Assembly (NCBI RefSeq): GCF_002165625.1
Contig: NZ_NGNS01000009.1
Location: 62,001-126,000 of the forward strand
Source of the DNA: Neiella marina
GTDB taxonomy: Bacteria > Pseudomonadota > Gammaproteobacteria > Enterobacterales > Neiellaceae
Reading direction: 5' to 3'
Length of the DNA: 64,000 bases
Below, piece after piece: positions 1-17,474 of the stretch. The notes below the pieces were generated by a model, which did no database searches, had not been told where the DNA came from, and was given only the letters and a program-made list of their open reading frames with translations. Both the position numbers and the translations under genes were made by a program. Within the stretch, counting starts at the first letter, position 1; every line of letters begins with the position of its first letter.

Positions 1-1
1 T

Positions 2-1033
2 GGAGATGGCTGCTATGCATTTTTTCTGGACTTAGACGACTATCTAGTTTTAGGGGAGAATACGATCAATGTGTATGCAGATAATATTTACGAGCTGGAT
101 TACCGAAATAACCGGGTCGAAGTGACCAATAACTTTAAACTCCCTAAATTTGATCCTTTTTTCCAACAGGGACTTACATTGCGTCGCACAAAGTTCGGTC
201 ATTTAGTTTTAAATGGTCTTGATCGTGGCGTTGATGAAGCGCTGCTTGAGTATGGTGAATGGGGCGTTGACGAAGTTGATGTATTCGGCGCGATTTTATC
301 CGAAGGCGATATTGCTCTTGATGTAGGGGCTAATTTAGGGGCTTCAGGCCTTCCTATGTCGAAAATTGTTGGTAACAGTGGCCAAGTTCATTGTTTCGAA
401 CCTCAACGTTATAACTTTTATAGGCTCTGTGCTCATATTTTGATGAATCAAGCAGAGAACATTACACCACATAATGTTGCGGTTGGCGCAGATAGTGGCT
501 CGAAAGTAAAAATACCTGCTATTGATTACAGTAAAATTCACTCAAGTGGCAGCGTTTCAGTAACACACGGTCGTAATGGCAACTATGAAGTTGATTGTAT
601 TTCGTTGTCTGATTTTTGTTTTGAGCACGATATTCAGCCCTCTTTAATAAAAGTTGATGTTGAAGGTTTTGAAGTAAATGTAATTAAAGGTGCTCAAAGA
701 CTTTGTGAAAGATACGCGCCTGCGGTTTATTTCGAGTGTCATGCTCATAGCGATTTTGAAAGCATTTACAATATGCTTAAATCTTGCAATTCGGATTATC
801 AGTTTTACTGGCATGTGGCTCGCATATTTTCAAATTCTAATTTCAACCGAAGTGAAAGGGATATTTATAATGGAGGCGGGCTTTCATTTAACGTTTTAGC
901 CTCTGTAAATCCCGTTGATGATATAAATCAACCAGGGTTTGTTCCTGTTGCTTCCGTTGCAGAATTTTGGCCGGAGGAACGCTTTCCTCTTTCGTTCAGA
1001 AATAAAATCAATATAGTTAAAGGTGAAGCCTGA
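2..1033 (+). CDS. FkbM-family SAM-dependent methyltransferase (5' end outside window)
   Basis: The frame is open from base 2, so the gene begins upstream. A GTG at 71 is possible, but the 23 upstream codons read through without a stop, so I treat the gene as cut by the window edge. The SAM-binding motif I is ALDVGANLGASG followed by the acidic-strand motif HCFEPQ. The FkbM signature LIKVDVEGFEVNVIKGA lies in the second half. FkbM proteins are O-methyltransferases that often act on polysaccharides or on secondary metabolites. Here the downstream neighbours are glycosyl-, pyruvyl- and sulfotransferases, so O-methylation of a surface glycan is the likely role (inference). The next gene starts 25 bp downstream on the same strand. 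Confidence 0.8.
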   Translation, partial: GDGCYAFFLDLDDYLVLGENTINVYADNIYELDYRNNRVEVTNNFKLPKFDPFFQQGLTLRRTKFGHLVLNGLDRGVDEALLEYGEWGVDEVDVFGAILSEGDIALDVGANLGASGLPMSKIVGNSGQVHCFEPQRYNFYRLCAHILMNQAENITPHNVAVGADSGSKVKIPAIDYSKIHSSGSVSVTHGRNGNYEVDCISLSDFCFEHDIQPSLIKVDVEGFEVNVIKGAQRLCERYAPAVYFECHAHSDFESIYNMLKSCNSDYQFYWHVARIFSNSNFNRSERDIYNGGGLSFNVLASVNPVDDINQPGFVPVASVAEFWPEERFPLSFRNKINIVKGEA

Positions 1034-1058
1034 TTTTTTGGGCTTTCAATATTTTTAG

Positions 1059-4000
1059 ATGATTCACAATTTAAAGAAATTACTTCATAAAGCAAAAGCT
1101 ATGAAGGTTTTGAATGGTTCTCATATTTTCGATCATGAGTACTACAATTTTTTCTCCAATAAGCCTCATTCTAAACAAGAAGCAGTTCGCCATTACTTGG
1201 ATATTGGCGTTAAGCAGGGGATTAACCCTTGTGAGATGTTTTCGACTAATTACTACTTATTGACTTACCCTGATGTTTTGGAATCGGGTAACAATCCACT
1301 CGTTCACTTCATACGCAGTGGCGCTCGCGAGGGGAGGCTCTGCCACCCAGACTTTAACTACGAACGAGCATTAGTTTTGCTGGCGCAGCATCAAGTACCT
1401 GGAGACAACTATCTCGAAGGTATTTTAAGCCTTATTAACTCAGGAAAAATCAAAAAGTCAGAAGTTTTCGATAGCAAAGAGCAGTTTATTAGCGAATCAG
1501 ATATATCAGCTATTGAGTCAAGTGGAGTATTTGACCGAGATTTTTATCTCAATGCATATCCTGATGTATTCGCCGCAAATATGGACCCTTTGCACCACTA
1601 TCTGCATTTTGGTTTTGCCGAGAAGCGAAACCCTTCATTGGCGTTCGATGGTGATTACTACCAGCGTAAACATATGCAAGCGGGTGATCATTTAAGTCCG
1701 CTTTTGCACTATATCCGTGATGAGCAACGTCAACCAGATATCCGGCCTTCTTATGGTTTAGATCTATCTCAAGATGAACACGTTACGTCAAATGCAAAGT
1801 TGGCAATACATATTCACCTTTTTTACCCTGATGTACTTGATGAGCTCGTTCCAAAGTTAAGGACGCTCGATCCGAGCATCAATCTGTTGGTCTCAACTTC
1901 CAGTAAAAACAAGAAAAAACAGATTGAGTCAAAAATTGCTAGGGCTTCTCTTGAAAATCACGTTGAACTGCGGGTTGTTGAAAACATAGGCCGGGACATT
2001 GCCCCCTGGTTTGTTGGTTTTGCTGACCTTTGGCCCCGATACGACTACGTATGCCATTTGCACTCAAAGAAAAGCCCTCACACTCACTTTGGCCGGCGTT
2101 GGCGTAGTTACTTGTTCGACCAACTAATAGGGTCTCAAGAGACAGTGAACTCTATCATTGCTCACTTTGAAACTAACTCAAATACAGGGTTCATGTACCC
2201 CGATAATTATCATGAAATAAAACCCTTTGTCGGCTGGAATGGGAATGAAGTCGAAGCCAAAGCGTTTCTTAATAGCATAGGGTTCTCAGATGTTGATTTC
2301 GACTCGTTACATTGTGAATTTGCTGCTGGCTCTATGTGTTGGGTTCGTACCTCTGCGTTTTCATCAATAAACAGTGGTGAGCTTAAGTTGGAGGATTTCG
2401 AATCCGAAAACAACCAAGAGGAAGGTACTCTTGCCCATGTGCTAGAGCGTTGTTTGCCTATTATTCCTCAACTCAACGGTTTTGAAGTTAAGAAATTTTA
2501 TGCACCAATTAATGATGTTGAGACATACCGCTTAGATTGGTCTAAGGGAGAAGACTTTCCTGCGAAAAATACTCAGGTAACTCAATCAAGGTGGTTACGT
2601 GATAACCCCGCTATTGCACTAAACGAGCGTGTAGCGCTAGCGCCGCAATATCCTTATTACAATGAAGACTCTCTTAACATTCACTGGGTGATCCCTGATT
2701 TTGGCATTGGTGCTGGCGGGCACATGACTATCTTCAGAATGATAAAATTTCTTGAAGAGTTCGGCCATAGGCAAACAATATGGATTCAGAATGCCCATAA
2801 TTACAAAACGCCAGCCGAGGCCAAGTTATGTATTCAGGATAATTATCAAGAAATTGGTGGAAATGTTATCGTTCAATTTCTTCCGGAAGATGTCGAGCGT
2901 ATTGCAGGCGACGTTATTATTGCTACAGATTGTTGGACAGTATTTCCCACCTTAGCAATGTCGCGTTTTAAAGAGCGCTTTTATTTTATACAAGACTGGG
3001 AGCCTATGTTTCACCCAGTTGGTGATGCGCATTTGATTGCTCAGCTAACTTATAAGCTCGGCTTCAATGCTTTGTGTGCTGGTAATTGGCTGCACCAGAA
3101 AGCTACCGAGGCTGGTTTGTGGGCCCGCAAATGGGACCTCGCGACAGATCAGCGGTTTTATTATCCTGATATTCAGTCAAAACCTCATAATGAAATTCTG
3201 CATATAGCGTTTTACGCTAGAGCCTACACTCCTAGACGTGCTGTTATGTTAGGTGTAACAGCATTGAAAGAATTACATCGCAGAGGTGTGGAATTTCATG
3301 TGTCCTTTTTTGGTCAAGATAATTTGAATTTCGACGTGGATTTCTCGCATGAGTACTTGGGGATCTTGTCACCAGAGGAACTAGGGAATCTATACCGTGA
3401 AGCCGATATAGGCATGGTTTTTTCTGCAACAAATTACTCATTGATTCCACTTGAAATGATGGCTTGTGCGCTGCCAGTCCTTGAGCTAGACGTAGAAAGT
3501 ACACGAGCAGTATTTGACGACTCTTTTATCGAAATGGCTTCTCCTGACCCTCTCGATATAGCAACTCGCCTTGAGCTTCTTGTAAATGACCGAGCATACG
3601 TTGAGAACAAAGCGAAGAAAGCCGAAGAGTTCAGTAAAACGCTGAGTTGGAAGAACAGTGCCCTTGCAATCGAGTCGGCTTTGAAGGAGAAGTTAGTTGA
3701 GAGTAATTATGTTCCTATAAACATTGATACTCTAGTGACTCCGCCAGAAAAGCCATATTTGCACAAGGCTGCAGTTATTATTCCTACCTATAATGCAGGA
3801 GAGGAATTTAAGCCTGTATTGGAGCAACTGCTAAGGCAACAGTGCGAGTTTAGCTATGAAATCGTAGTCGTCGATAGTGGTTCAACAGACCAAACGATTG
3901 AACTTATTAATAGTTATAACGATTCAAAAATTAAGCTAGTGACTATTCCAAACTCCGAATTCCAACACGGTAGGACCCGGAATTTTGCGATCTCACAAAC

Positions 4001-4670
4001 CGATGCTGAATTTGTAGCGGTTATTACCCAAGACGCAACACCGAAGGATAAACACTGGTTAACAAACCTAGTCAAGCCCTTTGATGATGAGCGTGTTGCT
4101 GGTGTGTTCGGTGCACACGAAGCGTACCCTAACCATTCAGCTTATGTTCAACGCGACATAAAGAGTGTTTTCGAGCGGTTTGACATGTTTGGCGACAAGT
4201 ACAAGTGGAGTACAGACTGTGTGGAGCCGGGCAGCATCGAGTGGCAGTTCCTTCTGCAATTCTACTCTGACAACAATTCCTGTATGCGCCGATCAGTTTG
4301 GGATGTAATGCCTTACCCAGAGATTGATTGGGGAGAAGACCAAGTATGGGCATGGATGATCGTCCAGTTAGGGTTTGTAAAGGCATATGCAGCTGAATCC
4401 ATCGTTTACCATTCCCATGATGATAGTTATCAAAAACGCTTTGATACTGCAAAGATTGAAGGGCGATTTTTCACTGAGTGCTTTGGGCTGAAACTATACA
4501 AGAGTGATGATGATATTGATGCCATTATCCGTGCTGCTCAGGATAATGACAGGCATTACGGGACAGAGCTTAAGTTAAACGATGAAGAGATTGATTCGCA
4601 AATGGCGTTGATCGAGGCTTCTCATCTTGGTCGCTTCAACGGTAACTTTATTAACGATAGAAACAGCTAA
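1059..4670 (+). CDS. Giant multidomain glycosyltransferase (RgpF-like + GT4/WsaF-like + GT2)
   Basis: This 1203-residue protein appears to carry three transferase modules. Residues about 24-225 hold four degenerate repeats of the form F-D-x-x-Y-Y-x-x-x-P-D-V ... P-L-x-H-Y-x-x-x-G. Residues about 247-500 look like the rhamnan-synthesis RgpF family (LAIHIHLFYPD, ENIGRDIAPW, HLHSKKSPH). Residues about 540-880 look like a GT4 transferase of the WsaF rhamnosyltransferase type (GIGAGGHMTIFRM, YFIQDWEPMF, SLIPLEMMACALPV). Residues about 902-1150 are a GT2 domain (AAVIIPTYNAG, VVVDSGSTDQT, FQHGRTRNFA). No signal peptide or membrane segment is visible, so it probably works at the cytoplasmic face. It probably adds several sugars, perhaps rhamnose, to one growing chain. 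Sugar specificity cannot be read from sequence. Confidence 0.85.
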   Translation: MIHNLKKLLHKAKAMKVLNGSHIFDHEYYNFFSNKPHSKQEAVRHYLDIGVKQGINPCEMFSTNYYLLTYPDVLESGNNPLVHFIRSGAREGRLCHPDFNYERALVLLAQHQVPGDNYLEGILSLINSGKIKKSEVFDSKEQFISESDISAIESSGVFDRDFYLNAYPDVFAANMDPLHHYLHFGFAEKRNPSLAFDGDYYQRKHMQAGDHLSPLLHYIRDEQRQPDIRPSYGLDLSQDEHVTSNAKLAIHIHLFYPDVLDELVPKLRTLDPSINLLVSTSSKNKKKQIESKIARASLENHVELRVVENIGRDIAPWFVGFADLWPRYDYVCHLHSKKSPHTHFGRRWRSYLFDQLIGSQETVNSIIAHFETNSNTGFMYPDNYHEIKPFVGWNGNEVEAKAFLNSIGFSDVDFDSLHCEFAAGSMCWVRTSAFSSINSGELKLEDFESENNQEEGTLAHVLERCLPIIPQLNGFEVKKFYAPINDVETYRLDWSKGEDFPAKNTQVTQSRWLRDNPAIALNERVALAPQYPYYNEDSLNIHWVIPDFGIGAGGHMTIFRMIKFLEEFGHRQTIWIQNAHNYKTPAEAKLCIQDNYQEIGGNVIVQFLPEDVERIAGDVIIATDCWTVFPTLAMSRFKERFYFIQDWEPMFHPVGDAHLIAQLTYKLGFNALCAGNWLHQKATEAGLWARKWDLATDQRFYYPDIQSKPHNEILHIAFYARAYTPRRAVMLGVTALKELHRRGVEFHVSFFGQDNLNFDVDFSHEYLGILSPEELGNLYREADIGMVFSATNYSLIPLEMMACALPVLELDVESTRAVFDDSFIEMASPDPLDIATRLELLVNDRAYVENKAKKAEEFSKTLSWKNSALAIESALKEKLVESNYVPINIDTLVTPPEKPYLHKAAVIIPTYNAGEEFKPVLEQLLRQQCEFSYEIVVVDSGSTDQTIELINSYNDSKIKLVTIPNSEFQHGRTRNFAISQTDAEFVAVITQDATPKDKHWLTNLVKPFDDERVAGVFGAHEAYPNHSAYVQRDIKSVFERFDMFGDKYKWSTDCVEPGSIEWQFLLQFYSDNNSCMRRSVWDVMPYPEIDWGEDQVWAWMIVQLGFVKAYAAESIVYHSHDDSYQKRFDTAKIEGRFFTECFGLKLYKSDDDIDAIIRAAQDNDRHYGTELKLNDEEIDSQMALIEASHLGRFNGNFINDRNS

Positions 4671-4718
4671 CTATAGCTTTGTAATCATACATATAAAATA
4701 TTAAATATTAGGCTGAAA

Positions 4719-5846
4719 ATGTTAACCAAACCATATTTAACCGGGATCGCTGGTGGTGTAAGGAATGTTGAAAAATACACCGTTTCAGAGCTATTTAAGC
4801 GAGCAGGAGCTAATACCGGGAACTTCCTATTTGTTTCTGCTTTGAGAAATATTTTAGGGCAAGAAAAGCATATTTATGATCACCAAGCTGATATTAAATA
4901 TGAACAAGAAAGCTTCGACTATATTGCGATGTCTGCAGCTAACTGGATTAACCCCGATGTTGACCTAACTCGAACTGTAGATTTCATTGAGTCAACAGAT
5001 TTACCTTGTTTACTTGTTGGCTTGGGTGCGCAGGTTAACTTTGGTGAAAAACCACCAAAATTGAAAAAAGGTACTGAACGTTTTTTAAAAGTAGTATCGG
5101 AAAGGTGTAAGCATATTTCTGTCCGGGGACCTCATACTCAAGAAGTTCTTGAGCATTATGGAGTCACTAATACTTGGGTCACTGGTTGTCCATCTATAGT
5201 CGGTGCTAATTTGGCATTCGATCCAAGTGTGATTAATGTTGACGTCAACATTCAACTTAAAGATGTAATTCTTCAAGGAACTCGGCATGATGATAACAAT
5301 AAAGTTTTTTCAGACAAGCTTGTAGATCAGATTAACCTTAGTATTTATAGGACCGCATTTAAACGGCGCTCGCCGTTGCTTCTTCAAAGTGAACTTCCAG
5401 ATATCTATCACGCATTAGGTCGATTAAATAATGAAAAACTAATCGAAAAGTCGAAAGGTTTTCTAGAAAAAGTCTATAACGCTCCATTAAATGAGGTATC
5501 TCCATACCTAAAGGAGTCGGCAATGATTTTCTGGGATGTCGATCTTTGGTTTAATGAACTTTCAAAGTTTAAATACTTAATTGGCAATCGAATCCATGGT
5601 GTTGTATCTGGCTTGTTGTCAGGTGTGCCATCTGTTTTGCTAGCGCACGATTATAGGACGTTAGAGCTTGCAGAAACAATGAATATTCCACATGTTGATT
5701 TGCGTGATTTGGATAAATTTGATGAGGCTACTATTTATTCAATCATAGATTCATCTGATTTTTCTAAGTTTAAGTCAGGATTCTCTGAATATAAAGATAA
5801 CTTCATCAAGTTCTTTGAAGCAAATGATTGTAAACATTATCTATAA
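4719..5846 (+). CDS. Polysaccharide pyruvyl transferase family protein
   Basis: This is a 375-residue protein of the polysaccharide pyruvyl transferase family, whose members move pyruvate from phosphoenolpyruvate to a sugar as a ketal and so give the polymer a negative charge. Matching features are the N-terminal GNFLFVSALRNILG segment, LLVGLGAQ, the ISVRGPHTQEVLEHYG-VTNTWVTGCPS block, and the C-terminal NRIHGVVSGLLSGVPSVLL segment with the Arg and His usual for this fold. The coding region is notably A+T-rich. The start ATG lies 48 bp after the previous stop in an A+T-rich spacer. Acceptor sugar unknown. Confidence 0.8.
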   Translation: MLTKPYLTGIAGGVRNVEKYTVSELFKRAGANTGNFLFVSALRNILGQEKHIYDHQADIKYEQESFDYIAMSAANWINPDVDLTRTVDFIESTDLPCLLVGLGAQVNFGEKPPKLKKGTERFLKVVSERCKHISVRGPHTQEVLEHYGVTNTWVTGCPSIVGANLAFDPSVINVDVNIQLKDVILQGTRHDDNNKVFSDKLVDQINLSIYRTAFKRRSPLLLQSELPDIYHALGRLNNEKLIEKSKGFLEKVYNAPLNEVSPYLKESAMIFWDVDLWFNELSKFKYLIGNRIHGVVSGLLSGVPSVLLAHDYRTLELAETMNIPHVDLRDLDKFDEATIYSIIDSSDFSKFKSGFSEYKDNFIKFFEANDCKHYL

Positions 5847-5866
5847 TTTAATTCCGGTATTTTATT

Positions 5867-7897
5867 TTGGATAATATCAATGCTCTAATTCATATTGGCT
5901 CTCCTAAGGCTGGCTCATCTGCGCTTCAGAAGTACTTAGTTACCAATGCAATTCAATTACGCCAGCAAGGTTTCTTTTATCCCAAGCATTCGCTCGATAA
6001 TAATGGAATAAGTTCGGGTAATGTTCTGTCTGTTTATGATCGTTTGGAAGATGGGAGCCTTGTTTTAAGTAGACGTAAAATCGCTAAGTTAATTGATGAT
6101 TTTAAAGGTTCGGGCTGTCATACTCTGCTATTGAGTTCGGAGGCATTTTTTCAAAGAGTAATCGAACTTAGCAGGGTGTTCACGGACTGCAAGTTTATTG
6201 CTTATGTTCGATCACCTCTAGATGTTTTCGAGTCAGGGTACAATCAGCTTATTAAAAGGCATGGGCAACATAAATTTATTGGTTTAAATAAAAAACTGTC
6301 AATTAATGGGATTGAGCTTTTAATCAGAAGTATTGAAGGTGTTGGAGCCGATAGGTTTGATTTGAGAGCATACGCTATAAACTGCTTTCAAGGCGGAAAT
6401 ATAATAAATGATTTTTTCAAGGCTACTGGGATTTCTGATTGTTCAGTTCAAGATGGAGCTTATGTTAACCGGTCTTACTGTTTAGAAGCATTGGAAGCTA
6501 AAAGGTGGCTAAACTCCTTGTTACTTCCTAAGAAAATTGATGATCAAATAGACTTACTTCTTCAGTCTTATAATGGGCCGACAAGAGAGTACTCATTACT
6601 CCCTTGTGATGTTTATGAAAGATTACGGCAGCAGGCTATCACTGCTTTGGAAAGGTTAAATAGTGTGACCGCTATTGAGTCATTTGATAGATTTATTGAG
6701 TCTGTTAAGACAACCCCTCAACGTAAATACATTTCTCAAGCTGAATCAAGACACTTTGCATTAAATGGGTTTGAATTTATTTTTAAAGAAAATCCGCGAT
6801 TGTATTTTTGTATTGCGGAGTATGTGTCGAAGGAAGTTGATGGTGCTTCTGATTTCTTTTCCGTCTCAAAACCAAATAGCTATTTAGAAAGGCTGTATTA
6901 TTTTTTTAAGGGCAGAAGATCTCCTAACCGTGATTTGCAGAGCTCCTTTTTGATTTTTTTGCACGTTCCTAAGACTGCTGGAACTAGCTTTAGGAGTGCT
7001 CTTTGTTCTTACTATGGAGCGCGTAAGGTTTGCACAGATTATCGCGGTGGCTCACAATTAGTTAGTAGTATTATTCGAAAGTATTTAATAGAAAAAAATG
7101 ATTTAGACGGTTTTAAGTCTGCGCTAGGTCGAAGTTCTTATAAAGCGTTAAGTGGTCACTTTAACGCTGAACGATACTCAGGAAGCTTTCGTCCCGATAT
7201 GTTTGTTTCATTTGTGCGAGAGCCAATATCTCGATTAGTCTCCCTATACCTACATAAAAAACGCCATAATAACTTGTCGTGCGGATTATTTGAGTTTGCT
7301 TTGGAACCCAAACTTCACAACGTTCAAACTAAATTATTTTCTGGCCTCCCTTGGCCTTGCTTTTCTTTTGTTGGGGTTACCGAGCGTTATACAGATTCTC
7401 TGACCTGTATTAACAATCAATTAAATACTAAATTCGTAGAGCTAGTAAAAAATACTGCGTCGAACGACATAAAGGATGAAGTAAGTATTTCCGACGAACA
7501 GCTCGAAGTTCTGAGAGCCAAAAACTTAGATGATATTGCGCTGGTTAACTCGGTTAATCAATACTTAGATTATCAGCTCGCTGCTCAGGTTGAAGGTTAC
7601 TCATTTATCAAGGGATGGTTTTCAATCAATGAGTCTGGTCAACTTGAGGGCTGGCTATTTCCTAAGGAACATATGTTGTCAGTCAGTATTGAGGTGTGCT
7701 CTAAAGATGAATCAATCAGCTACATTGATGCGGAAGTTAAACGAATCCGAGACTCTCAGTCGCCGCTGAATGGTATGCGGGCTGCTCGACTGCATATGCA
7801 ATTACCCGAAACCTGTATTGGCGAAAAGATTGAGCTCTATGTTCAAGATACAAAGCAGCCTATATTGAAGTTGAAAAAGGGATTTTCAGGCTGCTAG
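5867..7897 (+). CDS. Two-domain sulfotransferase (tandem PAPS-binding domains)
   Basis: This is a 676-residue protein with two separate sulfotransferase domains. Domain 1 has a PAPS 5'-phosphosulfate loop at residues 10-21 (IGSPKAGSSALQ) and a 3'-phosphate motif near residue 112 (YVRSPLDVFESGY). Domain 2 has its own loop near residue 365 (LHVPKTAGTSF) and 3'-phosphate motif near 447 (FVREPISRLVSLY), resembling eukaryotic-type carbohydrate 2-O-sulfotransferases. Residues about 585-676 form a tail with no recognised motif. The start is a TTG, since an in-frame stop at 5849 leaves no room for an upstream ATG and the loop begins 9 residues in. Cytoplasmic; presumably sulfates the glycan made by this locus. 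Neighbouring cysDNC could supply PAPS. Base composition is A+T-rich, as in the preceding gene. Confidence 0.82.
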   Translation: MDNINALIHIGSPKAGSSALQKYLVTNAIQLRQQGFFYPKHSLDNNGISSGNVLSVYDRLEDGSLVLSRRKIAKLIDDFKGSGCHTLLLSSEAFFQRVIELSRVFTDCKFIAYVRSPLDVFESGYNQLIKRHGQHKFIGLNKKLSINGIELLIRSIEGVGADRFDLRAYAINCFQGGNIINDFFKATGISDCSVQDGAYVNRSYCLEALEAKRWLNSLLLPKKIDDQIDLLLQSYNGPTREYSLLPCDVYERLRQQAITALERLNSVTAIESFDRFIESVKTTPQRKYISQAESRHFALNGFEFIFKENPRLYFCIAEYVSKEVDGASDFFSVSKPNSYLERLYYFFKGRRSPNRDLQSSFLIFLHVPKTAGTSFRSALCSYYGARKVCTDYRGGSQLVSSIIRKYLIEKNDLDGFKSALGRSSYKALSGHFNAERYSGSFRPDMFVSFVREPISRLVSLYLHKKRHNNLSCGLFEFALEPKLHNVQTKLFSGLPWPCFSFVGVTERYTDSLTCINNQLNTKFVELVKNTASNDIKDEVSISDEQLEVLRAKNLDDIALVNSVNQYLDYQLAAQVEGYSFIKGWFSINESGQLEGWLFPKEHMLSVSIEVCSKDESISYIDAEVKRIRDSQSPLNGMRAARLHMQLPETCIGEKIELYVQDTKQPILKLKKGFSGC

Positions 7898-7982
7898 TTT
7901 AGTGGGCCCTTACAACCTAACTTTTAATGCCTTTTAGTCTAAATTGTTCTGCTTGGCTCTATTGGTGATTGCTCACAATTTT

Positions 7983-9743
7983 ATGAAGAAGCCTCTTATT
8001 CGCCTGTTGAAAGGCGTAGTGAATACACTACCCAAAAGTGTTAAGCAACTTCTGGCCGATTTGTCTGGGTTAACAGCTTGGTATCGAAAAAACTTAAATC
8101 AACACTACTTTGAGTCTTATAACTTCGACTCAAGCGCTAGGACCTCAACTTATCAAGACTGGTGCCTCAAGCAGTCCGCTCATACAGAGCATAGCGATCC
8201 ACAAGTTGCTATTGCGTGCGTTATCAACGCCAGCACTGCTAATAGGTTAGAGAAACTTCCTGACTCTCTGAATTCAATCTCAAATGGCTCTATACAGCCA
8301 TCTTTGGTCCTAGTTAATGCAGATAGCGAGCTGAAGCCGCAAGTTTTAAACTTAGTGGGGCAGTGCCTGTGTCCCTCGATAACTTGGGCATTTGCTGATC
8401 AAACAGAAAATGTAGTCGAGCAGGCCCTTTATTGTTGCTTTATCAATGCTGGTGATCGATTAGCAGCCGATGCATTTGCACAGTTGCAATATGAGGTGAC
8501 TCAACACCCCAACAGCTCGGTTATCTATGCTGACCATGACTATTTGAATCAACATGGCGAACGTTATCTGCCCCAGTTTAAACCTGCATGGAATTTAGAT
8601 CTGCAACTGACTACTCACTACGTCTCCAATGCTGGGTTCTGGCTATTGGGTTGTGAGGAGCTAGAAGGGGTATTGTCGGCGACTGATAATTTGGACAATA
8701 TCTTATATAACTTAACTGTTGAGCGAGCATTGAATGGCAAAAGTGATATTAGCCATACCGCCAAAATGCTTTTCCATTTCGATGGAAACCCCACGTCTCA
8801 CAACCTTGAAGCACTAAATTTATCTTCGGCTAATCTCGCATCATTAGGTTTGTCTGCCGGTGCGGTGACATTTAGCAACGGTTGTTTCAATATAAGTTGG
8901 CCATTACCTGCTGATAAGCCACTTGTTAGCCTGATCATCCCTACAAAAAATGCGCTCAAGCTCGTCAAATCATGCATCAACTCCATTCTGGAAAAAACTG
9001 ACTACGACAACTTTGAAATATTGCTAGTCGATAACCAAAGTGATGAGCCAGCATCGCTAAAGTATTTTGAGCGGTTAAGCCATCATCCTAAGATTCGAGT
9101 TATCAAATATGATGCGCCGTTCAACTACTCTGCCATTAACAATTTTGCGGTTGAGCAAGCGAGCGGTGAGATTATCGCGCTGGTAAATAATGATATTGAA
9201 GTGATCGATGACAATTGGCTTTCAGAAATGGTGAGCCATGCATTGCGGCCAAGCGTCGGCTGTGTTGGTGCCAAGTTGTTTTATTCCGACAATACCATTC
9301 AGCATGCGGGGGTTATTATTGGCTACGGTGGTGTGGCGGGGCATGCCCACAAGCATTTTCCTATGCACCATTCGGGCTATATGAATCGATTACAGGCGGT
9401 GCAAAACTTCAGTGCCGTCACCGCAGCTTGTTTAGTAGTGAAGAAAGACATTTATCATCAAGTTGGCGGACTCAACGAGCAAGATTTAACGGTAGCCTTT
9501 AATGATGTCGATTTTTGTTTGAAAGTTCAGGCGGCTGGCTACCGCAATGTGTGGACGCCTTATGCGCGATTGTATCACCATGAGAGCGTTTCTCGAGGTA
9601 GCGATCAAAGTGGAGCCAAACTGAAGCGCTTTGAAGCAGAAATAGATTTCATGAAAAACACATGGAAAACAGACATTCAGCCAGATCCAGCATATAATCC
9701 CAACCTAACGCTTAAGCGGGAAGACTTCGGCTTGCCCGAATAG
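7983..9743 (+). CDS. Glycosyltransferase family 2 protein with a second, degenerate GT-A-like half
   Basis: I take the ATG at 7983 as start (586 residues). A TTG at 7944 would add 13 residues, but nothing supports it. The C-terminal half is a clear GT2 domain: VSLIIPTKN, ILLVDNQSDEPAS, FNYSAINNFAVEQASG, LVNNDIEV (acidic metal-binding position), and GGLNEQDLTVAFNDVDFCLK. The N-terminal half resembles the other copy found in two-headed O-antigen transferases (YADHDYLNQHGERYLPQFKP, WNLDLQLTTHYVSNAG). It lacks a clean nucleotide-sugar motif and may be a scaffold rather than a catalyst. The protein probably adds hexose or deoxyhexose residues to the polymer. It is followed after 51 bp by another GT2 gene. 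Confidence 0.82.
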   Translation: MKKPLIRLLKGVVNTLPKSVKQLLADLSGLTAWYRKNLNQHYFESYNFDSSARTSTYQDWCLKQSAHTEHSDPQVAIACVINASTANRLEKLPDSLNSISNGSIQPSLVLVNADSELKPQVLNLVGQCLCPSITWAFADQTENVVEQALYCCFINAGDRLAADAFAQLQYEVTQHPNSSVIYADHDYLNQHGERYLPQFKPAWNLDLQLTTHYVSNAGFWLLGCEELEGVLSATDNLDNILYNLTVERALNGKSDISHTAKMLFHFDGNPTSHNLEALNLSSANLASLGLSAGAVTFSNGCFNISWPLPADKPLVSLIIPTKNALKLVKSCINSILEKTDYDNFEILLVDNQSDEPASLKYFERLSHHPKIRVIKYDAPFNYSAINNFAVEQASGEIIALVNNDIEVIDDNWLSEMVSHALRPSVGCVGAKLFYSDNTIQHAGVIIGYGGVAGHAHKHFPMHHSGYMNRLQAVQNFSAVTAACLVVKKDIYHQVGGLNEQDLTVAFNDVDFCLKVQAAGYRNVWTPYARLYHHESVSRGSDQSGAKLKRFEAEIDFMKNTWKTDIQPDPAYNPNLTLKREDFGLPE

Positions 9744-9794
9744 AACTTGTTTCGGCCTCAAATTTACTGCACAAGGATGTGGAGTGTCACCTGA

Positions 9795-10754
9795 ATGGAA
9801 TTATCTATTGATAATGCGCAACTAAGGAATACCGTTAGCCCCATGCTGATGGAAACCAGAAAACAATCCGATTTTGTTATCTACTCACATTTCCACCTCG
9901 CTAACATCGAGGTTGAAAGTATTGTTGGTATGGCTGTTTATGCCGGGGATCGGGTAGATTGGGTCGCTCTGGCTATTGAAAGTGTACTTCGTCAAACTTA
10001 TCAAGATTTTTTGCTTTGTGTGGTTATTGATGGCCCCATAGCACCTGATATGCGTGACCTGCTAACGAAGTTGGACAAAGAGCAGCAGCGAATGGTGTTA
10101 ATTGAGTCCGAAACAAATCTTGGCTTGGCAGCTTGCATGAACGGTGTGATTGATTATGCCAATGAATTTTCGCCGAGCTTCTTCTTTCGGATGGATTCGG
10201 ATGATATCTGCTTCCGTGGTCGCCTAGCTCGACAAGTTAAGTTTTTCAGAGATAACCCTGGCGTGTCAGTCGTTGGTTCTTCACTAGTTGAGATTGATGA
10301 AAAAGGTAGCAGTGTTGGTCGGCGTAAAATGCCAAAGAAGCACCATGAAATTATGAGGTTCATGCCAAAGCGGTGCTCATTAAACCACCCGACTATCGCG
10401 ATACGATACGATGTACTGGAACAAGGATTTCGATACAACCCTCAATTACAGAATACGCAAGACTACTTTCTATGGGTTGACCTCGCAGTGGCTGGTTTTC
10501 AGTTTGCTAACATCAATAAACCGCTGCTTAAGTTTCGTCGCGCCAAAGGTTTTTTCAAGCGCCGCGGGTTGAGTAAATCATTTAACGAGTTTAGGGCTCG
10601 ACTCTATGCAATGAAAAAACTCGACCGAGTCAGTCCGGGCAATTTGTTTTATGCCTGCTCAGTTTTCGTTATCCGAATGATGCCACCTCCACTATTAAAA
10701 TTCGCATACAAGTTAGATCGGGTATTGCTCCATTTTCTGGTTCGCAATAAATGA
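9795..10754 (+). CDS. Glycosyltransferase family 2 protein
   Basis: This 319-residue protein has the GT2 fold: VGMAVYAGDRVDWVALAIES at the nucleotide-binding start, SVLRQTYQDF, a FFFRMDSDDICFRGRL metal-binding (DxD-type) region, and SLNHPTIAIR in the acceptor half. It resembles small transferases of O-antigen and capsule loci. About 35 residues precede the usual start of the domain, so an internal start is possible, but the ATG at 9795 is preceded by a GGAG at a workable distance. The stop codon overlaps the next start (ATGA), so the two are translationally coupled. Sugar specificity is unknown. Confidence 0.8.
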   Translation: MELSIDNAQLRNTVSPMLMETRKQSDFVIYSHFHLANIEVESIVGMAVYAGDRVDWVALAIESVLRQTYQDFLLCVVIDGPIAPDMRDLLTKLDKEQQRMVLIESETNLGLAACMNGVIDYANEFSPSFFFRMDSDDICFRGRLARQVKFFRDNPGVSVVGSSLVEIDEKGSSVGRRKMPKKHHEIMRFMPKRCSLNHPTIAIRYDVLEQGFRYNPQLQNTQDYFLWVDLAVAGFQFANINKPLLKFRRAKGFFKRRGLSKSFNEFRARLYAMKKLDRVSPGNLFYACSVFVIRMMPPPLLKFAYKLDRVLLHFLVRNK

Positions 10755-11623
10755 TCGCAGCCATTGTCGTCGCCTATTTTCCTGAGGCGGCTCAGCTTGT
10801 TAGCCTATTGTTAAAATTGTCCAAACAAGCGCAACATGTCGTTGTTGTTGACAATACGCCAGAACAGTTCGGTACTCCATCTTGGTTGGCTGATTTGGCC
10901 ACGAGTAACATTCAATGGATAGCTCAAGGTGCCAACGTTGGTATTGCCGAAGCACACAACATAGGAATCAAAGCCGCACAGCTCAGCGGCGCAGAGCAAG
11001 TCATCTTATTTGATCAAGACAGCCAAGTTGGTGATGATTTTATTTTGTTACTCTCTAGTGCGGCCTATAAGTTGCGGCAACAGGGGATAAAATTAGCTTG
11101 TATCGGTCCTCGGCCATTTTGCATCCATGCGAATCAGCAATCGCGGCCACGTGTCCAACGAGAGTTGCAGCGCTTGGCGGATGTGACGTTAGTTCGGCAG
11201 ATTATCGCATCGGGCATGCTTATTCGTGTAGCGGACTATAAAGATATTGGCCCAAAAGAAGCGGGGTTGTTTATCGATGGTGTTGATCATGAATGGTGTT
11301 GGCGTGCAGCTAGCAAAGGCTACACGGTTGCGATTTGTGAGTCGGTGATTATGCCCCACAAACTGGGTGATGACAGGGGGCGAATAATCGGTATCAGCTA
11401 CAAAGTTGGTAGTCCTATCCGCCTTTACTACCAGTTTCGCAATACCTGGGTATTAGCTCGCAGATCATATGTGCCAACCTATTGGAAGCTTAGAAACATT
11501 GTTGCTCAGCCCGTTCGTTTTGTTTTGATGGGGCTGTTTCAATCGCCTCGGCGGCTGCGCATCAGATATATGCTTAAAGGCGTTTTACATGGTCTGCTGA
11601 AGAAACAAGGTCCATACAAATAG
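10751..11623 (+). CDS. Glycosyltransferase family 2, rhamnosyltransferase-like
   Basis: The protein is 290 residues and resembles rhamnosyltransferases of the RfbF type: AAIVVAYFPEAAQLVSLL, VVVVDNTP, QGANVGIAEAHNIGIKAA, ILFDQDSQVG (the acidic DQDS motif), and FIDGVDHEWCWRAASKGY followed by a basic C-terminus (RRLRIRYMLKGVLHGLLKKQ) that may touch the membrane. It overlaps the preceding gene by 4 bp. It is the last gene of the glycan locus in this window. The next gene on the same strand is cysD after 261 bp. Confidence 0.8.
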   Translation: MIAAIVVAYFPEAAQLVSLLLKLSKQAQHVVVVDNTPEQFGTPSWLADLATSNIQWIAQGANVGIAEAHNIGIKAAQLSGAEQVILFDQDSQVGDDFILLLSSAAYKLRQQGIKLACIGPRPFCIHANQQSRPRVQRELQRLADVTLVRQIIASGMLIRVADYKDIGPKEAGLFIDGVDHEWCWRAASKGYTVAICESVIMPHKLGDDRGRIIGISYKVGSPIRLYYQFRNTWVLARRSYVPTYWKLRNIVAQPVRFVLMGLFQSPRRLRIRYMLKGVLHGLLKKQGPYK

Positions 11624-11884
11624 CTAGAAGTTGCTCTTGAAGGTTTACAGCTTTTAATTTGGTCTATATTTCTGTTCGCTATAAAAACCCATCTTTATAT
11701 AGCTATTCCAAACTTATCTTTTCCTTCAACCATAAAAGCTTTACTATTGGCTCCAACTCGAGGCCCAACAACAGAAAGCTGCCAGGCCAAGATTATAGAG
11801 TGAGATCTACCTCACGGTTTTCTGGTGGAATCAGATTTCATTCGTTAGACTCCTGATTAGTTTAGCTGGACGAAGATATCGCAT
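11624..11884 (+). promoter_or_regulatory. Intergenic region upstream of cysD, probable activator-dependent promoter
   Basis: These 261 bp separate the glycan locus from cysDN. The first half is A+T-rich (around 11690-11755) and the second half is mixed. A TATAGA at about 11794 could be a -10 box, but no good -35 lies 16-18 bp upstream, which would fit an activator-dependent promoter. In enteric bacteria cysDN needs CysB. I see no confident CysB site and no clear terminator for the upstream genes. The 65-codon reading frame here shows no protein-like features. Confidence 0.3.
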
Positions 11885-12793
11885 ATGGACGCTCATACCC
11901 TTACCCACCTCAAGGCGCTTGAAGCCGAAAGTATTCACATTATCCGCGAAGTAGCTGCCGAGTTTGATAACCCGGTGATGCTTTACTCTATTGGTAAAGA
12001 TTCTGCTGTGATGTTGCACCTTGCCCGCAAGGCGTTTGCGCCGGGGAATCTGCCATTTCCACTACTTCACGTCGATACTGACTGGAAATTCCGCGAAATG
12101 ATTGAGTTTCGCGACAATCTAGCCAAGAAGTATGGCTTTGAACTGTTGGTGCACAAAAACCCCGAAGGCATGGCAATGGGAATGAACCCATTTGACTTTG
12201 GTAGTGCTAAACACACCGACGTGATGAAAACCCAAGGCTTGAAACAAGCGCTGGATAAGTATCAGTTTGATGCTGCATTTGGTGGCGCTCGTCGTGACGA
12301 AGAGAAGTCGCGCGCGAAAGAACGAGTTTATTCATTCCGCGATAAAAACCACCGTTGGGATCCAAAAAACCAACGCCCGGAGTTGTGGAACATCTACAAC
12401 GGTAAAGTGAACAAAGGCGAAAGTATTCGCGTGTTCCCATTATCGAACTGGACTGAACTCGATATTTGGCAATACATCTACCTCGAAAACATTGAAATTG
12501 TGCCGCTATACAAGTCTGCGGTGCGTCCGGTGGTTGAGCGTGATGGTACATTAATCATGGTTGATGATGACCGTATGCCGCTGGAAGAAGGCGAAGTGCC
12601 GATGCAGAAGATGGTTCGCTTCCGTACCTTGGGTTGTTACCCATTGACCGGTGCCGTCGAATCTGAGGCGACAACCTTGCCAGAAATTATTCAGGAAATG
12701 CTGCTGACCAAGACGTCAGAGCGTCAGGGCCGAGTCATTGACCATGATCAGGCTGGCTCCATGGAGCAGAAGAAGAAGGAGGGCTACTTCTAA
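11885..12793 (+). CDS. cysD: Sulfate adenylyltransferase subunit 2
   Basis: CysD is the catalytic subunit of ATP sulfurylase and makes adenosine 5'-phosphosulfate (APS) from ATP and sulfate together with the GTPase CysN. At 302 residues it matches the E. coli length. The PP-loop [17 protein letters not shown] is present near residue 37, followed by [17 protein letters not shown] and [16 protein letters not shown], both family signatures. The stop and the cysN start share one base (TAATG), so the two subunits are translationally coupled. APS made here feeds CysC further along the same cluster. Confidence 0.97.
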
Positions 12794-14217
12794 TGAGTCA
12801 CGCATCTGATTTAATCGCCGAAGATATTCAGGCCTACCTGAAACAGCACGAACAAAAAGAACTGCTGCGCTTTTTAACCTGCGGCAGCGTCGATGACGGC
12901 AAAAGCACCCTGATTGGTCGTTTGCTGCACGATTCGAAAATGATCTATGAAGATCAACTGTCAGCGATCAAGAAAGACTCGCAGAAGTTCAACACTACCG
13001 ATGAAGAGTTTGACTTGGCGCTGCTAGTTGATGGCCTGCAGTCTGAACGCGAGCAAGGTATCACCATTGACGTGGCTTATCGCTACTTCTCTACCGACAA
13101 GCGTAAGTTCATTATTGCCGACACCCCAGGCCATGAGCAGTACACGCGTAACATGGCGACCGGTGCCTCAACCTGTGATTTGGCCATTTTGATGATTGAT
13201 GCCCGCCATGGCGTGCAAGTGCAAACCAAGCGTCACAGCTTTATTGTGTCGCTATTGGGCATTCGCCAAGTGGTTGTTGCGGTAAACAAAATGGACTTGA
13301 TGGACTTCTCTGAAGAGGTCTACAACAAGATCAAAGCCGATTACGAGAAGTTTGCTGAAAAGCTCAATATCCCAAACATTAAGTTTGTACCTATCTCAGC
13401 GCTGAAAGGCGACAACGTGGTTGAGCGCAGTGACCAAAGCCCTTGGTATCACGGTGAAACCTTGATGTCGATGCTGGAGAGTGCGGAAATTGCCGCCGCT
13501 CGCAACCTGTCTGACTTCCGTTTGCCAGTGCAGTACGTGAATCGTCCTAACCTTAACTTCCGTGGCTTCTGCGGCACTATTGCTGCCGGTATTGTTCGCG
13601 TCGGTGACGAAATTACGGCATTACCATCGGGTAAAAGCTCGAAGGTGAAGTCGATTGTTACCTTCGAGGGAGAGTTGCAAGAGGCCTATGCGCCAATGGC
13701 AATTACTTTGACGCTGGAAGATGAAATCGACATCAGCCGTGGTGACATGATTGTCCATAGTAACAATCAACCAGAAGTGGCTGGCGCGTTGGACGTCCAC
13801 ATTGTTTGGATGTCTGAAGATGCCTTGGTGGCAAACAAACAGTATGACTTCAAGTTGGCGACTAAGACTGCTAGCGGCTCAATCGCTGACATTCAGTACG
13901 CCATTGACGTTAATACCCTAGAGCATGACGATTCTGCGGTCCGTTTGAGCCTTAATGAAATTGGCCGTTGCCAGTTGCATCTGAATCAGCCCGTTGCTTT
14001 TGATGCCTATGACAAAATTCCGGGTACTGGTGCCTTTGTCATTATCGACCGCTTGACCAACGTCACTGTTGGCGCAGGTATGGTGATTGGTAAGGGCTCT
14101 GATGATAAGTCAGGTGCACAAGCAACTTACAGTGAATTTGAGTGGGAGCTCAATGCACTGATTCGCAAACACTTCCCGCACTGGGAAGCAAAAGATCTGC
14201 GCGAGTTATTGAAGTAA
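12793..14217 (+). CDS. cysN: Sulfate adenylyltransferase subunit 1 (GTPase)
   Basis: CysN is the regulatory GTPase subunit of ATP sulfurylase. GTP hydrolysis drives APS formation by CysD. The 474-residue protein has the elongation-factor-like G domain: P-loop [18 protein letters not shown], switch [19 protein letters not shown], and NKMD for guanine recognition, followed by beta-barrel domains. Unlike some bacterial NodQ/CysNC proteins it has no fused APS kinase, which is instead encoded separately by cysC downstream. It overlaps cysD by 1 bp and the transporter gene by 1 bp. Confidence 0.97.
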
Positions 14218-15944
14218 TGACAACGCAAAGCTGGCTGGTGGTGGCAATATTTATTGCTACCCTGGCCGGTTTAATTCGCTTTCAAAAGCGACCAGCAAAA
14301 GTGTTTGGCTGCACTTTGTTGGCGGTCTTTGGTTTTGGTTTGGTATCCACCGAGCAAATGCTATCTAGCTTGGTGAATCCGGGCCTCATCACTCTCATTC
14401 TACTGATCATCTGTTCGTTTGCCTTGGAGAAGACCCGTTTTCTGCGATTGATTGCATCAACGGTGATCAAACCTGGGTTTAAACTCACTTGGTTGCGCTT
14501 GTTTGGCTCGACCGTCGTTTCATCCGCCTTACTTAACAACACTGCAGTGGTTGCCACCCTGATCGCGCCGATTCGCAGCAACCCGCATCATCCGGCTGGC
14601 AAGCTGTTGCTGCCGTTATCCTATGCCGCAATATTGGGCGGCACGCTGACCCTGATTGGCACCTCTACCAACCTGATTGTCGATAGTATGCTGTATGAAA
14701 CCAGCAACGAGCGCTTAGACTTTTTCGCCTTTACTAGTGTCGGGGTGTTGTTGGTGATTGCTGGAGGCGTGACGTTGTTTTTGTCATCCCGCTGGTTGCC
14801 AGATACGCGCGTCACCCAGGGTGACAGCGCCGGCTATTTTCTTGACGCCCAAGTACAGCCCGACTCATCCATGATTGGTAAATCGGTTGAAGAGAATGGT
14901 TTGCGTCACCTTGAATCGTTGTTCTTAGTGGAGATTGCCCGCGCTGACCGGCTAATTTCTCCGGTAACACCCGCGGAGACCATTCTTCCTGGCGATCGTT
15001 TGGTGTTTTCAGGTGATATTTCCAAGGTGATGCAATTGAGCCAGTTTGATGGCTTAAAAACATTTGCTGATGAAAGCGGCATGCTCGCCTCAAACTTGAC
15101 TGAAGTGGTTGTTCGCCCCGACAGTTCACTGATTGGCTTATCGCTTAAAAATGCCGGTTTTCGGGCCCGCTTTGATGCCGCTGTCGTTGCCATGCGGCGT
15201 GACGGTCAACGTCTGTCTGGCAAGTTAGGTGAAGTGAAGATTCAAGCCGGCGACTTTTTGGTGTTAGCCGTTGGCCCAGACTTCTCATCTCGAAACAACT
15301 TAACCAAAAACTTCATTGTTATCTCCGGAGTGGAGCCAGAGACGCGGCTGTCTGGTCAACGAGAATGGATTGCCGGTTTAGGTTTTCTCGCTGTTGTGGC
15401 CCTTGCGGCTACTGGAACTTTGAGCTTACTCAAAGGTTTAATGCTATTTTTGGCTGTCCTCTACTTCACCGATTGCCTAAGCTTAAATGAAGTGCAGCGG
15501 CGCTTACCGCTCGATATTTGGTTGGTGGTGGCATCAGCACTAACGTTAGCCCATGCGCTAACAAACTCCGGCATGGTGGCAGAGTTTGCAAATTTATTTG
15601 CACAGTCATTTGATACCAGCCAGATTTATTTGGCCTTTGTTGGGGTCTATATCATGACGCTGGTGTTGACCGAGTTGGTTACCAATAATGCAGCAGCTGC
15701 GTTGGTGTTTCCGATGGCGTACGGCATGGCCCTCGGTTTTAATGTCGACCCAATGCCGTTTGTTATGGCCGTGGCGTTTGGCGCTAGCGCCAGTTTTGTT
15801 AGCCCTTATGGCTATCAAACTAACTTGATGGTGTATAACGCCGGTCAGTATCAATTAAAAGATTTTTTACGCGCCGGACTACCGGTGTCACTGGTGTACA
15901 GTGTGGTGGTGCTGCTCGCAGTACCTTACTTCTTCCCTTTTTAA
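14217..15944 (+). CDS. SLC13/DASS-type anion transporter with two RCK-C (TrkA-C) domains
   Basis: The correct start is the ATG at 14217, sharing a base with the cysN stop (TAATG). The longer frame from 14142 runs inside cysN. The 575-residue protein has N-terminal membrane segments (VVAIFIATLAGLIRF, LITLILLIICSFALE) with a conserved SSALLNNTAVVATL loop and GGTLTLIGTSTNLIVD, the family anion-binding signature. A cytosolic insert with two TrkA-C-like domains follows at about residues 205-385 (QPDSSMIGKSV; RPDSSLIGLSL), then a second membrane half with TELVTNNAAAALVFPMA. Its place between cysN and cysC points to sulfate uptake. That substrate is inferred from context. Confidence 0.88.
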   Translation: MTTQSWLVVAIFIATLAGLIRFQKRPAKVFGCTLLAVFGFGLVSTEQMLSSLVNPGLITLILLIICSFALEKTRFLRLIASTVIKPGFKLTWLRLFGSTVVSSALLNNTAVVATLIAPIRSNPHHPAGKLLLPLSYAAILGGTLTLIGTSTNLIVDSMLYETSNERLDFFAFTSVGVLLVIAGGVTLFLSSRWLPDTRVTQGDSAGYFLDAQVQPDSSMIGKSVEENGLRHLESLFLVEIARADRLISPVTPAETILPGDRLVFSGDISKVMQLSQFDGLKTFADESGMLASNLTEVVVRPDSSLIGLSLKNAGFRARFDAAVVAMRRDGQRLSGKLGEVKIQAGDFLVLAVGPDFSSRNNLTKNFIVISGVEPETRLSGQREWIAGLGFLAVVALAATGTLSLLKGLMLFLAVLYFTDCLSLNEVQRRLPLDIWLVVASALTLAHALTNSGMVAEFANLFAQSFDTSQIYLAFVGVYIMTLVLTELVTNNAAAALVFPMAYGMALGFNVDPMPFVMAVAFGASASFVSPYGYQTNLMVYNAGQYQLKDFLRAGLPVSLVYSVVVLLAVPYFFPF

Positions 15945-15959
15945 TGGTGGGACAAGAGC

Positions 15960-16562
15960 ATGGCTGAGAATATTGTTTGGCATGAGCACAAAATTACCCG
16001 TGAGCAACGTAATGAGCTTTGTGGACATAAATCTTGCGTACTGTGGTACACAGGTTTAAGCGGCTCCGGTAAATCAACCGTTGCCAACGCAGTAGATGAA
16101 TTACTGCACAAGCGAGGAGTTCACACTTACGTGCTCGATGGCGACAATGTTCGCCATGGTCTAAATGGTGACTTGGGATTTTCTGACAAAGAACGGGTGG
16201 AAAACATCCGCCGCGTTGGTGAGGTGTCTAAGTTGTTTGTGGACGCAGGCATCATCGTTACAACGGCCTTCATTTCACCATTTCGTGCCGATCGCAAATT
16301 GGCGCGAAAACTGTTTCCGGAAGGCGAATTTGTTGAAGTGTTTATCGATACGCCGCTGGATGTCTGTGAGAGCCGCGATCCAAAGGGTTTATACAAGAAG
16401 GCTCGCGCTGGCAAGATCCCGCACTTTACCGGTATTGATTCGGCTTACGAAGAGCCAGAAGCCGCTGAAGTTCGAGTCGAAACCGATGGCCGCAGTGTGA
16501 TTGATTGCGCGCATCAAATCGTTGCTTACTTGTCTGACAACGGCTATCTCGCCAGCGAGTAA
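15960..16562 (+). CDS. cysC: Adenylylsulfate (APS) kinase
   Basis: CysC phosphorylates APS at the 3' position to give PAPS, the sulfate donor for both reductive assimilation and sulfotransferases. The 200-residue protein has the P-loop [13 protein letters not shown], the APS-binding segment [20 protein letters not shown], and the lid [13 protein letters not shown]. It lies 15 bp after the transporter gene with GGGACAAGAG just before the ATG, so it belongs to the same transcript. No PAPS reductase or sulfite reductase gene is seen in this window. Confidence 0.97.
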
Positions 16563-16593: not shown

Positions 16594-16697
16594 CCTGACA
16601 GTTTGGTGTGGTGATCTCGCCATACTTACCCTTAAACTAATATTGCTAGCAAACCGCTAGTCGCAATAATCTGCTATTACAAAACAAGGACGACTTG

Positions 16698-17474
16698 ATG
16701 TCTGAACTTATTAACCAAGGTTTGGTCGATGCCGTCATCGCAACGGCAAAGAAAGCCGGTGCGGAAATCATGGCAATCTACGACCGAGATTTTTCCATTT
16801 ACGAGAAAGATGACAAGAGTCCGTTGACTGAGGCTGACTTAGCGGCTCATAAAGTGATTGTCGCCGGTTTGCAGCAACTGCCAGTGTTCTATCCCATTCT
16901 TTCTGAAGAGAATGCCGATATTGATTGGGCTGAACGCCAACAATGGGATACTTACTGGTTGGTTGATCCGCTGGATGGCACCAAAGAATTCATCAAGAAA
17001 AATGGCGAGTTTACCGTCAATATTGCCCTAGTCAGCAATGGTGTGCCGGTGATGGGCGTGGTTTATGCACCTGCAATTGATACCTTGTACTGGGGCGCAG
17101 AAGGCCTTGGTGCTTACAAACAAGTCGCGGACGCAGCGGCCACAACAATCAAAGCCGCTGCAGCTGCAGCCGGTGAAACGGTCAAAGTGGTCGGCAGTCG
17201 TTCTCACCCAAGCCCAGATATGGCCGCTTACTTAGAGCAGTTCGACAGCCATGAAATGGTCGCCATGGGAAGTTCACTGAAACTATGCTTGGTGGCCGAA
17301 GGCGCGGCTCATGTGTATCCTCGCTTGGGGCCAACATCGGAATGGGACACTGGTGCTGCTCACGGTGTTGCTTTGCAAGCCGGGGCTCGTGTGGTGACTG
17401 TTGAAGGTGCGCCGCTGACATATAACCAAAAAGAGTCAGTACTCAACCCGTACTTTATTGTTGAGCCAGTGTGA
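16698..17474 (+). CDS. cysQ: 3'(2'),5'-bisphosphate nucleotidase (PAP phosphatase)
   Basis: CysQ hydrolyses 3'-phosphoadenosine 5'-phosphate (PAP), the by-product left when PAPS donates sulfate, to AMP. PAP inhibits sulfotransferases. The inositol-monophosphatase fold signatures are all present: LSEENA, WLVDPLDGTKEF (metal ligands), and SEWDTGAAHGV near the C-terminus. I choose the ATG at 16698 (258 residues) preceded by AAGGACG. The TTG one codon earlier is not needed. It sits 135 bp after cysC, past a weak terminator, and may have its own promoter. Confidence 0.95.
   Translation: MSELINQGLVDAVIATAKKAGAEIMAIYDRDFSIYEKDDKSPLTEADLAAHKVIVAGLQQLPVFYPILSEENADIDWAERQQWDTYWLVDPLDGTKEFIKKNGEFTVNIALVSNGVPVMGVVYAPAIDTLYWGAEGLGAYKQVADAAATTIKAAAAAAGETVKVVGSRSHPSPDMAAYLEQFDSHEMVAMGSSLKLCLVAEGAAHVYPRLGPTSEWDTGAAHGVALQAGARVVTVEGAPLTYNQKESVLNPYFIVEPV

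Follow-up and report, generated by a model that had tools for sequence, protein, structure and literature searches.

The question raised by this locus is whether one gene of Neiella marina encodes two working sulfotransferases in a single polypeptide and, if so, how the two came together and what they may sulfate. The window, that is, the whole stretch of 64,000 nucleotides analysed here, contains on the plus strand an open reading frame (5867 to 7897) of 676 amino acids without an internal stop, which an earlier reading made from the sequence alone had described as a tandem fusion of two unlike sulfotransferase domains. Our analysis bears this description out. The frame comprises a first sulfotransferase domain, here ST1 (5867 to 6844, about residues 1 to 326), a linker of low model confidence (6845 to 6931, about residues 327 to 355) with a run of seven T at 6901, a second sulfotransferase domain, ST2 (6932 to 7594, about residues 356 to 576), and a C-terminal all-beta domain (7610 to 7870, about residues 582 to 668), which is made of strands in the model, can be aligned in most of the 23 ST2 rows and gave no Pfam match over the cut-off. 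The two sulfotransferase domains are indeed unlike, since their kinship is only distant (hhalign probability of 50%, E value of 1.6e-4). Because ST2 rows fell on ST1 when the full protein was aligned jointly with both families, the two domains were modelled separately; the structure prediction, which the sequence-only reading had proposed as a check, was confident for both and returned a sulfotransferase fold in each case (pLDDT of 90.3 and pTM of 0.87 for ST1, pLDDT of 89.4 and pTM of 0.88 for ST2).

As judged from its relatives, its predicted fold and the motif residues K14, R115 and S123, ST1 is a PAPS-dependent sulfotransferase fold. The 5'-phosphosulfate-binding (PSB) loop GSPKAGSS lies at residues 11 to 18 (5897 to 5920), with K14 present in 34/34 ST1 rows, and the 3'-phosphate site, YVRSPLDVFESGYNQ, at residues 113 to 127 (6203 to 6247), with R115 in 34/34 and S123 in 33/34 rows. 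The solved folds nearest to the model are those of NDST1 (Z score of 13.2) and of the heparan sulfate (HS) 3-O-sulfotransferase 3-OST-3 (Z score of 12.7), at about 10 to 14% identity to the NDST N-sulfotransferase domain and the HS 3-O-sulfotransferases, an assignment which rests, as does that of ST2, on VIA-align together with the motifs, the global Foldseek scores being weak (best E value of 5e-5 and TM of 0.30 for ST1). ST1 of the window gave no match in Pfam or NCBIfam, and the cut-offs of PF00685, PF03567 and PF13469 were not reached; PF13469 matched four of the seven ST1 or ST1-like proteins scanned, all under the cut-off (18.9 to 23.5 versus 27). Like the fused enzyme, NDST joins two activities in one polypeptide, but its partner domain is a deacetylase and not a second sulfotransferase; in the Pfam and NCBIfam scans the N-deacetylase domain was absent from our reading frame, where the partner domain is ST2. 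Conserved candidates for the catalytic base of ST1 are H41, D44 (28/34 rows) and E92, the last being invariant (34/34). We do not assign this role to a glutamate by analogy with NDST, as E92 lies 78 residues past the PSB lysine, compared to 27 in NDST (Lys614 to Glu641). As regards NDST itself, His716 is discussed as the base in the accessible portion of one study (PMC3733922), and a glutamate is named for NST1 in the accessible portion of a review (PMC11625862).

ST2 had been described as carrying a loop of the eukaryotic carbohydrate type, and this agrees with what we found for the domain. It matches Sulfotransfer_2 (PF03567) with 40.9 bits against a cut-off of 22, and its model is nearest to HS 2-OST (Z score of 16.6) and HS 6-OST (Z score of 15.0), with the next solved sulfotransferases at 10.8 and less, and with weak global Foldseek scores (best E value of 1e-4, TM of 0.36). 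The residues characteristic of the HS 2-OST/6-OST class are all present: the lysine of the PSB loop VPKTAGTS (residues 367 to 374, 6965 to 6988; K369, or K19 in ST2 numbering), a histidine (codon at 7157 to 7159; H431, or H81), and the arginine and serine of the 3'-phosphate site FVREPISRLVS (residues 449 to 459, 7211 to 7243; R451 and S459, or R101 and S109), each conserved in 23/23 ST2 rows. In particular, the residue of chicken HS2ST that aligns with H431 is the second histidine of its HGH motif, the spacing from the loop lysine being 62 residues in the window versus 59 in chicken. If the chicken loop lysine is Lys83, as we take it to be, the aligned histidine is His142, so that H431 would probably be the equivalent of the catalytic base of HS2ST. 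Replacement of this histidine (H142A) leaves less than 1% of the activity of HS2ST, according to the accessible part of PMC6094399. The HS 2-O- and 6-O-sulfotransferases (4ndz, 3f5f, 5t05) thus share with ST2 the fold, the PSB loop and the histidine; different from ST2, they are eukaryotic and are only about 17 to 18% identical to it, and ST2 has the C-terminal beta-domain in addition.

The genes around the fusion are all on the plus strand and make the locus look like a sulfated-capsule cluster. Upstream of the reading frame we identified an FkbM methyltransferase (71 to 1033; Pfam/NCBIfam), a multidomain glycosyltransferase with RgpF, WsaF C-terminal and GT2 domains (1059 to 4670; domain scan) and a polysaccharide pyruvyl transferase (4719 to 5846; PF04230). 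Downstream follow a GT2 glycosyltransferase (7944 to 9743; hereafter GT 7944), a further GT2 enzyme (9795 to 10754), a rhamnosyltransferase-like GT2 protein (10751 to 11623; TIGR01556, 170.4 bits, under the cut-off of 200.55), cysD and cysN for the small and large subunits of ATP sulfurylase (11885 to 12793 and 12793 to 14217), a permease of the CitMHS or Na-sulfate symporter type (14142 to 15944), cysC for the APS kinase that makes PAPS (15960 to 16562) and cysQ for 3'(2'),5'-bisphosphate nucleotidase (16695 to 17474). Upstream of the window itself (locus L006) there are genes for a polysaccharide export protein, an ABC transporter, an AlgX-like acetyltransferase and an NKWYS-family protein, in addition to rmlA, rmlB and gmd, and to rmlC and rmlD, which were assigned by eye from the translations; the presence of Poly_export, ABC2_membrane and ABC_tran domains is that of an ABC-dependent (group 2/3 type) capsule locus. 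The fused enzyme probably decorates a sulfated sugar coat. The NKWYS-family capsule protein (PF10364; L006, 15794 to 16753) shows sulfotransferase-like motifs by eye and could be a third sulfotransferase of the locus.

The sequence-only reading had also seen a foreign look in the A+T-rich codons and the TTG start of the gene. The former cannot be held as a mark of the fused gene alone, since the low GC content spans the whole capsule region (0.37 to 0.44 for the genes from 71 to 9743, with cysD and cysN at about 0.49). Within the frame no start codon precedes this TTG, and ST1 relatives start at about the same place; we draw no inference from it, as the frame at 7944 also begins mechanically at TTG, though with an ATG 13 codons later. 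A plasmid- or phage-borne gene was rejected, since tblastn gave no match in phages (E values up to 1e-4) and the plasmid search matched 16 of 72,556 records, all of them less than 60% identical and short of 80% coverage of the query. The ST2 profile matched 20 loci in viral contigs.

How the two domains may have come to share one reading frame is suggested by the sister species. In N. holothuriorum (L029) and N. litorisoli (L030), the same two families occur in the same order, ST1 then ST2, and in the same place before a homologue of GT 7944 (66% and 50% identity, respectively), but as two separate adjacent genes, 32 and 17 bp apart. In N. holothuriorum the genes after this homologue also follow the order of the window, with two glycosyltransferases (80% and 63% identity), cysD (96%) and cysN (94.5%). 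By comparison, window ST1 and ST2 are each 39% identical to their counterparts in N. holothuriorum (34% and 26% in N. litorisoli), and, given the far higher identity of the neighbouring genes, the sulfotransferase genes seem to be either fast-evolving or exchanged. Between fixed anchors, the window has 234 nucleotides versus 380 and 350 in the sisters, that is, 116 to 146 fewer, which fits a fusion via deletion; from this comparison we infer that the tail of ST1, the spacer and the start of ST2 may have been lost. The phylogenies (86 ST1 and 27 ST2 sequences, reduced to 78 and 23 after removing duplicates) are less uniform. In the ST2 tree the window pairs with N. holothuriorum (99/97), both on long branches, and the program warned that the join may be false. 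In the ST1 tree the nearest row to the window is Paraglaciecola arctica (SH-aLRT of 93) and not N. holothuriorum, and constraining the two Neiella ST1 sequences together was neither favoured nor rejected (AU p of 0.5). Since the ST1 tree leaves them unpaired, the two halves of the fusion may differ in their history.

ST2 profile matches with E values up to 1e-10 were found in 21/394 genomes of the order, 15/369 of the class and 18/398 of the phylum, these sets being overlapping, and ST1 profile matches under the same threshold in 31/394 genomes of the order, the search having scored the first few candidates of each genome. No other fusion with ST1 in front of ST2 occurs among the ST2-profile matches listed or in 80 named ST1 loci. 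The remaining frames of more than 500 amino acids among the matches listed are a GT2-ST2 protein in two genomes, a fusion in the reverse order (G092) and a nonribosomal peptide synthetase (NRPS; G315). A scan of genome contigs with the whole protein returned no relative, while the scan with the ST1 profile did find relatives. Unfused, the two families recur side by side: adjacent ST2-ST1 pairs are present in G019 and G075, and in G212 a divergent ST1-like gene overlaps ST2. Strong ST1 and strong ST2 matches, under thresholds chosen after the tables had been seen, occur together in 7 of the 394 genomes of the order versus 0.76 expected (hypergeometric p of 1.4e-6; p of 3e-4 by genus), and in two of these seven (G036 and G182) the genes are non-adjacent, about 29 and 39 kb apart. 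In searches of CC-licensed PMC text for fused or tandem sulfotransferases, glycosyltransferase fusions, pseudo-sulfotransferases and paired genes, no title among the matches listed concerned a fusion of two sulfotransferases.

Nine loci of the Alteromonadaceae type (L045, L097, L100, L102, L103, L104, L106, L111 and L112; for example, L045, 8832 to 10466, and L106, 5416 to 7059) encode proteins of 544 to 590 amino acids which, like the window protein, join an ST2-related part and ST1 in one polypeptide, but in the opposite order, with an intact ST1 in second place. The ST2-derived part is homologous to ST2 (hhalign probability of 99.2%, E value of 3e-19); different from the window, its loop lysine is missing in 9/9 cases, as is its GH motif, and it keeps the 3'-site arginine in 1/9. 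These fusions form one clade of the ST1 tree (SH-aLRT of 100), apart from the window, and therefore seem to stem from a single event of their own. The unfused pair of G075, which shares its family code with G092, the one coded reverse fusion, is likewise in the order ST2-ST1.

A further element common to the two families is their glycosyltransferase neighbour. Homologues of GT 7944 (blastp E values up to 1e-40), counted on the same strand and within 150 bp, and leaving out duplicates and frames outside the non-overlapping gene list, lie directly beside 39 of 98 sulfotransferase genes, namely, 24/75 ST1 genes, 14/22 ST2 genes and the window gene. Random placement within the loci gave a mean of 13.7 and a maximum of 23 in 2,000 draws; as the rows share ancestry, the comparison is to be taken as descriptive. 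The nine reverse fusions all lack such a neighbour. The pattern points to ST1 and ST2 as alternative or joint partners of a single glycosyltransferase family in part of their range.

The reading we prefer, with a probability of about 0.62, is that of a real gene fusion with two working sites, acting in concert with GT 7944 and adding two sulfates to each capsule repeat. Two neighbouring genes, ST1 then ST2, would have fused in the capsule locus of this Neiella species to give a protein with two PAPS-dependent active sites, for which the adjacent cysD, cysN and cysC would supply PAPS while CysQ would remove the by-product PAP. The capsule repeat, for which pyruvylation and rhamnose residues are predicted, would receive sulfate from both domains in the cytoplasm and before ABC export, and the concert of these domains with GT 7944 would result in two sulfates per repeat at a fixed stoichiometry. 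In this scheme we infer the activity of both domains, the cytoplasmic action before export, the shared acceptor and the placing of the sulfates. According to the sequence-only reading, one polypeptide could sulfate two positions of the same sugar; gene order suggests at most that ST1 and ST2 share a repeat unit. Chemically, a sugar with two sulfates is not without precedent: in the O-polysaccharide of Cobetia pacifica, as reported in the accessible part of PMC6801904, a 2,3-di-sulfated galactose stands beside a pyruvylated one.

Other explanations have to be weighed against this one. The fusion would be unreal or inconstant if an indel in the run of seven T at 6901, due to an assembly error, to slipped-strand variation or to slippage during expression, merged two genes. 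This run corresponds to codons 345 to 347, at the end of ST1, and, as read from the sequence, one extra T would bring an immediate TAA stop; A or T runs of at least seven are only three in positions 1 to 12000 of the window (6901, 6954 and 7092), all inside the fused frame, those at 6901 and 6954 lie on either side of the ST1-ST2 junction, both sister species have two genes, and the window species is represented by one genome. Nevertheless, ST2 as a gene of its own would lack an ATG or GTG start near the junction, its possible in-frame starts being TTG at 6935, 6950 and 6959 and CTG at 6893, none of them preceded by a clear ribosome site. Moreover, the spacer of both sisters is missing in the window, and a run of seven bases is short and hardly uncommon where A+T content is high, so that we consider a merger of this kind improbable. 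No more credit can be given to a protein with a single activity, one domain of which would be only structural or regulatory. Such a fate seems to have befallen the ST2-derived part of the reverse-order fusions, but the loss of catalytic residues in one domain, which the sequence-only reading had named as the outcome that would speak against its own interpretation, is absent in the window: the 3'-phosphate site is kept in both domains, as had been noted, and so are all the other motif residues checked.

A more serious competitor, though still the less likely one, is that the two domains, both of them active, modify different sugars of the repeat, or that one serves the capsule and the other a different glycan, the fusion fixing only their ratio. 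In many loci a GT 7944 homologue adjoins just one of the two, ST1 or ST2, from which it follows that each domain can work by itself, and the nearest folds of the two are enzymes of different positional specificity. On the other hand, the fusion and the repeated adjacency suggest a common substrate, and, for the case of different sugars, the distance from the preferred reading of a doubly sulfated repeat reduces to the placing of the sulfates. Beyond that preferred reading, it is possible to hypothesize, tentatively and with more doubt than belief, a dedicated two-site sulfation complex of ST1 and ST2 that is tied to one glycosyltransferase family and has undergone fusion at least twice, with opposite domain orders. 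Both sites would be functional in Neiella, where one polypeptide would yield a doubly sulfated residue, whereas in the Alteromonas-type lineage ST2 would have degenerated into a pseudo-sulfotransferase that is retained as a partner of ST1.

The polysaccharide sulfotransferases of bacteria have received little characterisation, and their sequences rarely reveal which acceptor they use. Among described clusters, those of Vibrio sp. KMM 8419 (PMC11641403) and Cobetia marina KMM 1449 (PMC11766843) resemble the window locus, in the accessible portions of both reports, by ABC export, rhamnose, PAPS genes and sulfotransferases; the sulfotransferases of the Vibrio cluster are listed as three separate reading frames, and the published repeats carry one sulfate each (Rha 3S and Rha 2S, respectively). 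The synechan cluster of Synechocystis likewise contains two sulfotransferases of distinct subfamilies, xssA and xssE, in one polysaccharide cluster, but as separate genes, with Wzx/Wzy export and in a cyanobacterium, and the sulfate-to-sugar ratio of synechan is about 2 to 8 (PMC8205485, accessible portion). Two classes of sulfotransferase naturally joined next to one glycosyltransferase, together with the unfused sister pairs and the decayed counterpart, provide a ready comparison set, and, if both domains do act on one repeat unit, the protein would offer a means of producing a doubly sulfated glycan with a single polypeptide.

The loci examined contain further fusions of sulfotransferase domains with other partners. 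GT2-ST2 proteins are encoded in L041 (7710 to 9791) and L042 (7604 to 9685), an ST1-GT61 protein in L040 (7926 to 10244) and a protein of 966 amino acids in which ST1 is fused to a glycosyltransferase of the 7944 type in L061 (5992 to 8892). In L206 (1 to 9567), the ST2 profile detected a very long NRPS frame with a PF06990 sulfotransferase near its end, and the 1,850-amino-acid protein of L208 (1125 to 6677) combines WbsX, GT2 and GT4 domains with a C-terminal ST1-like domain.
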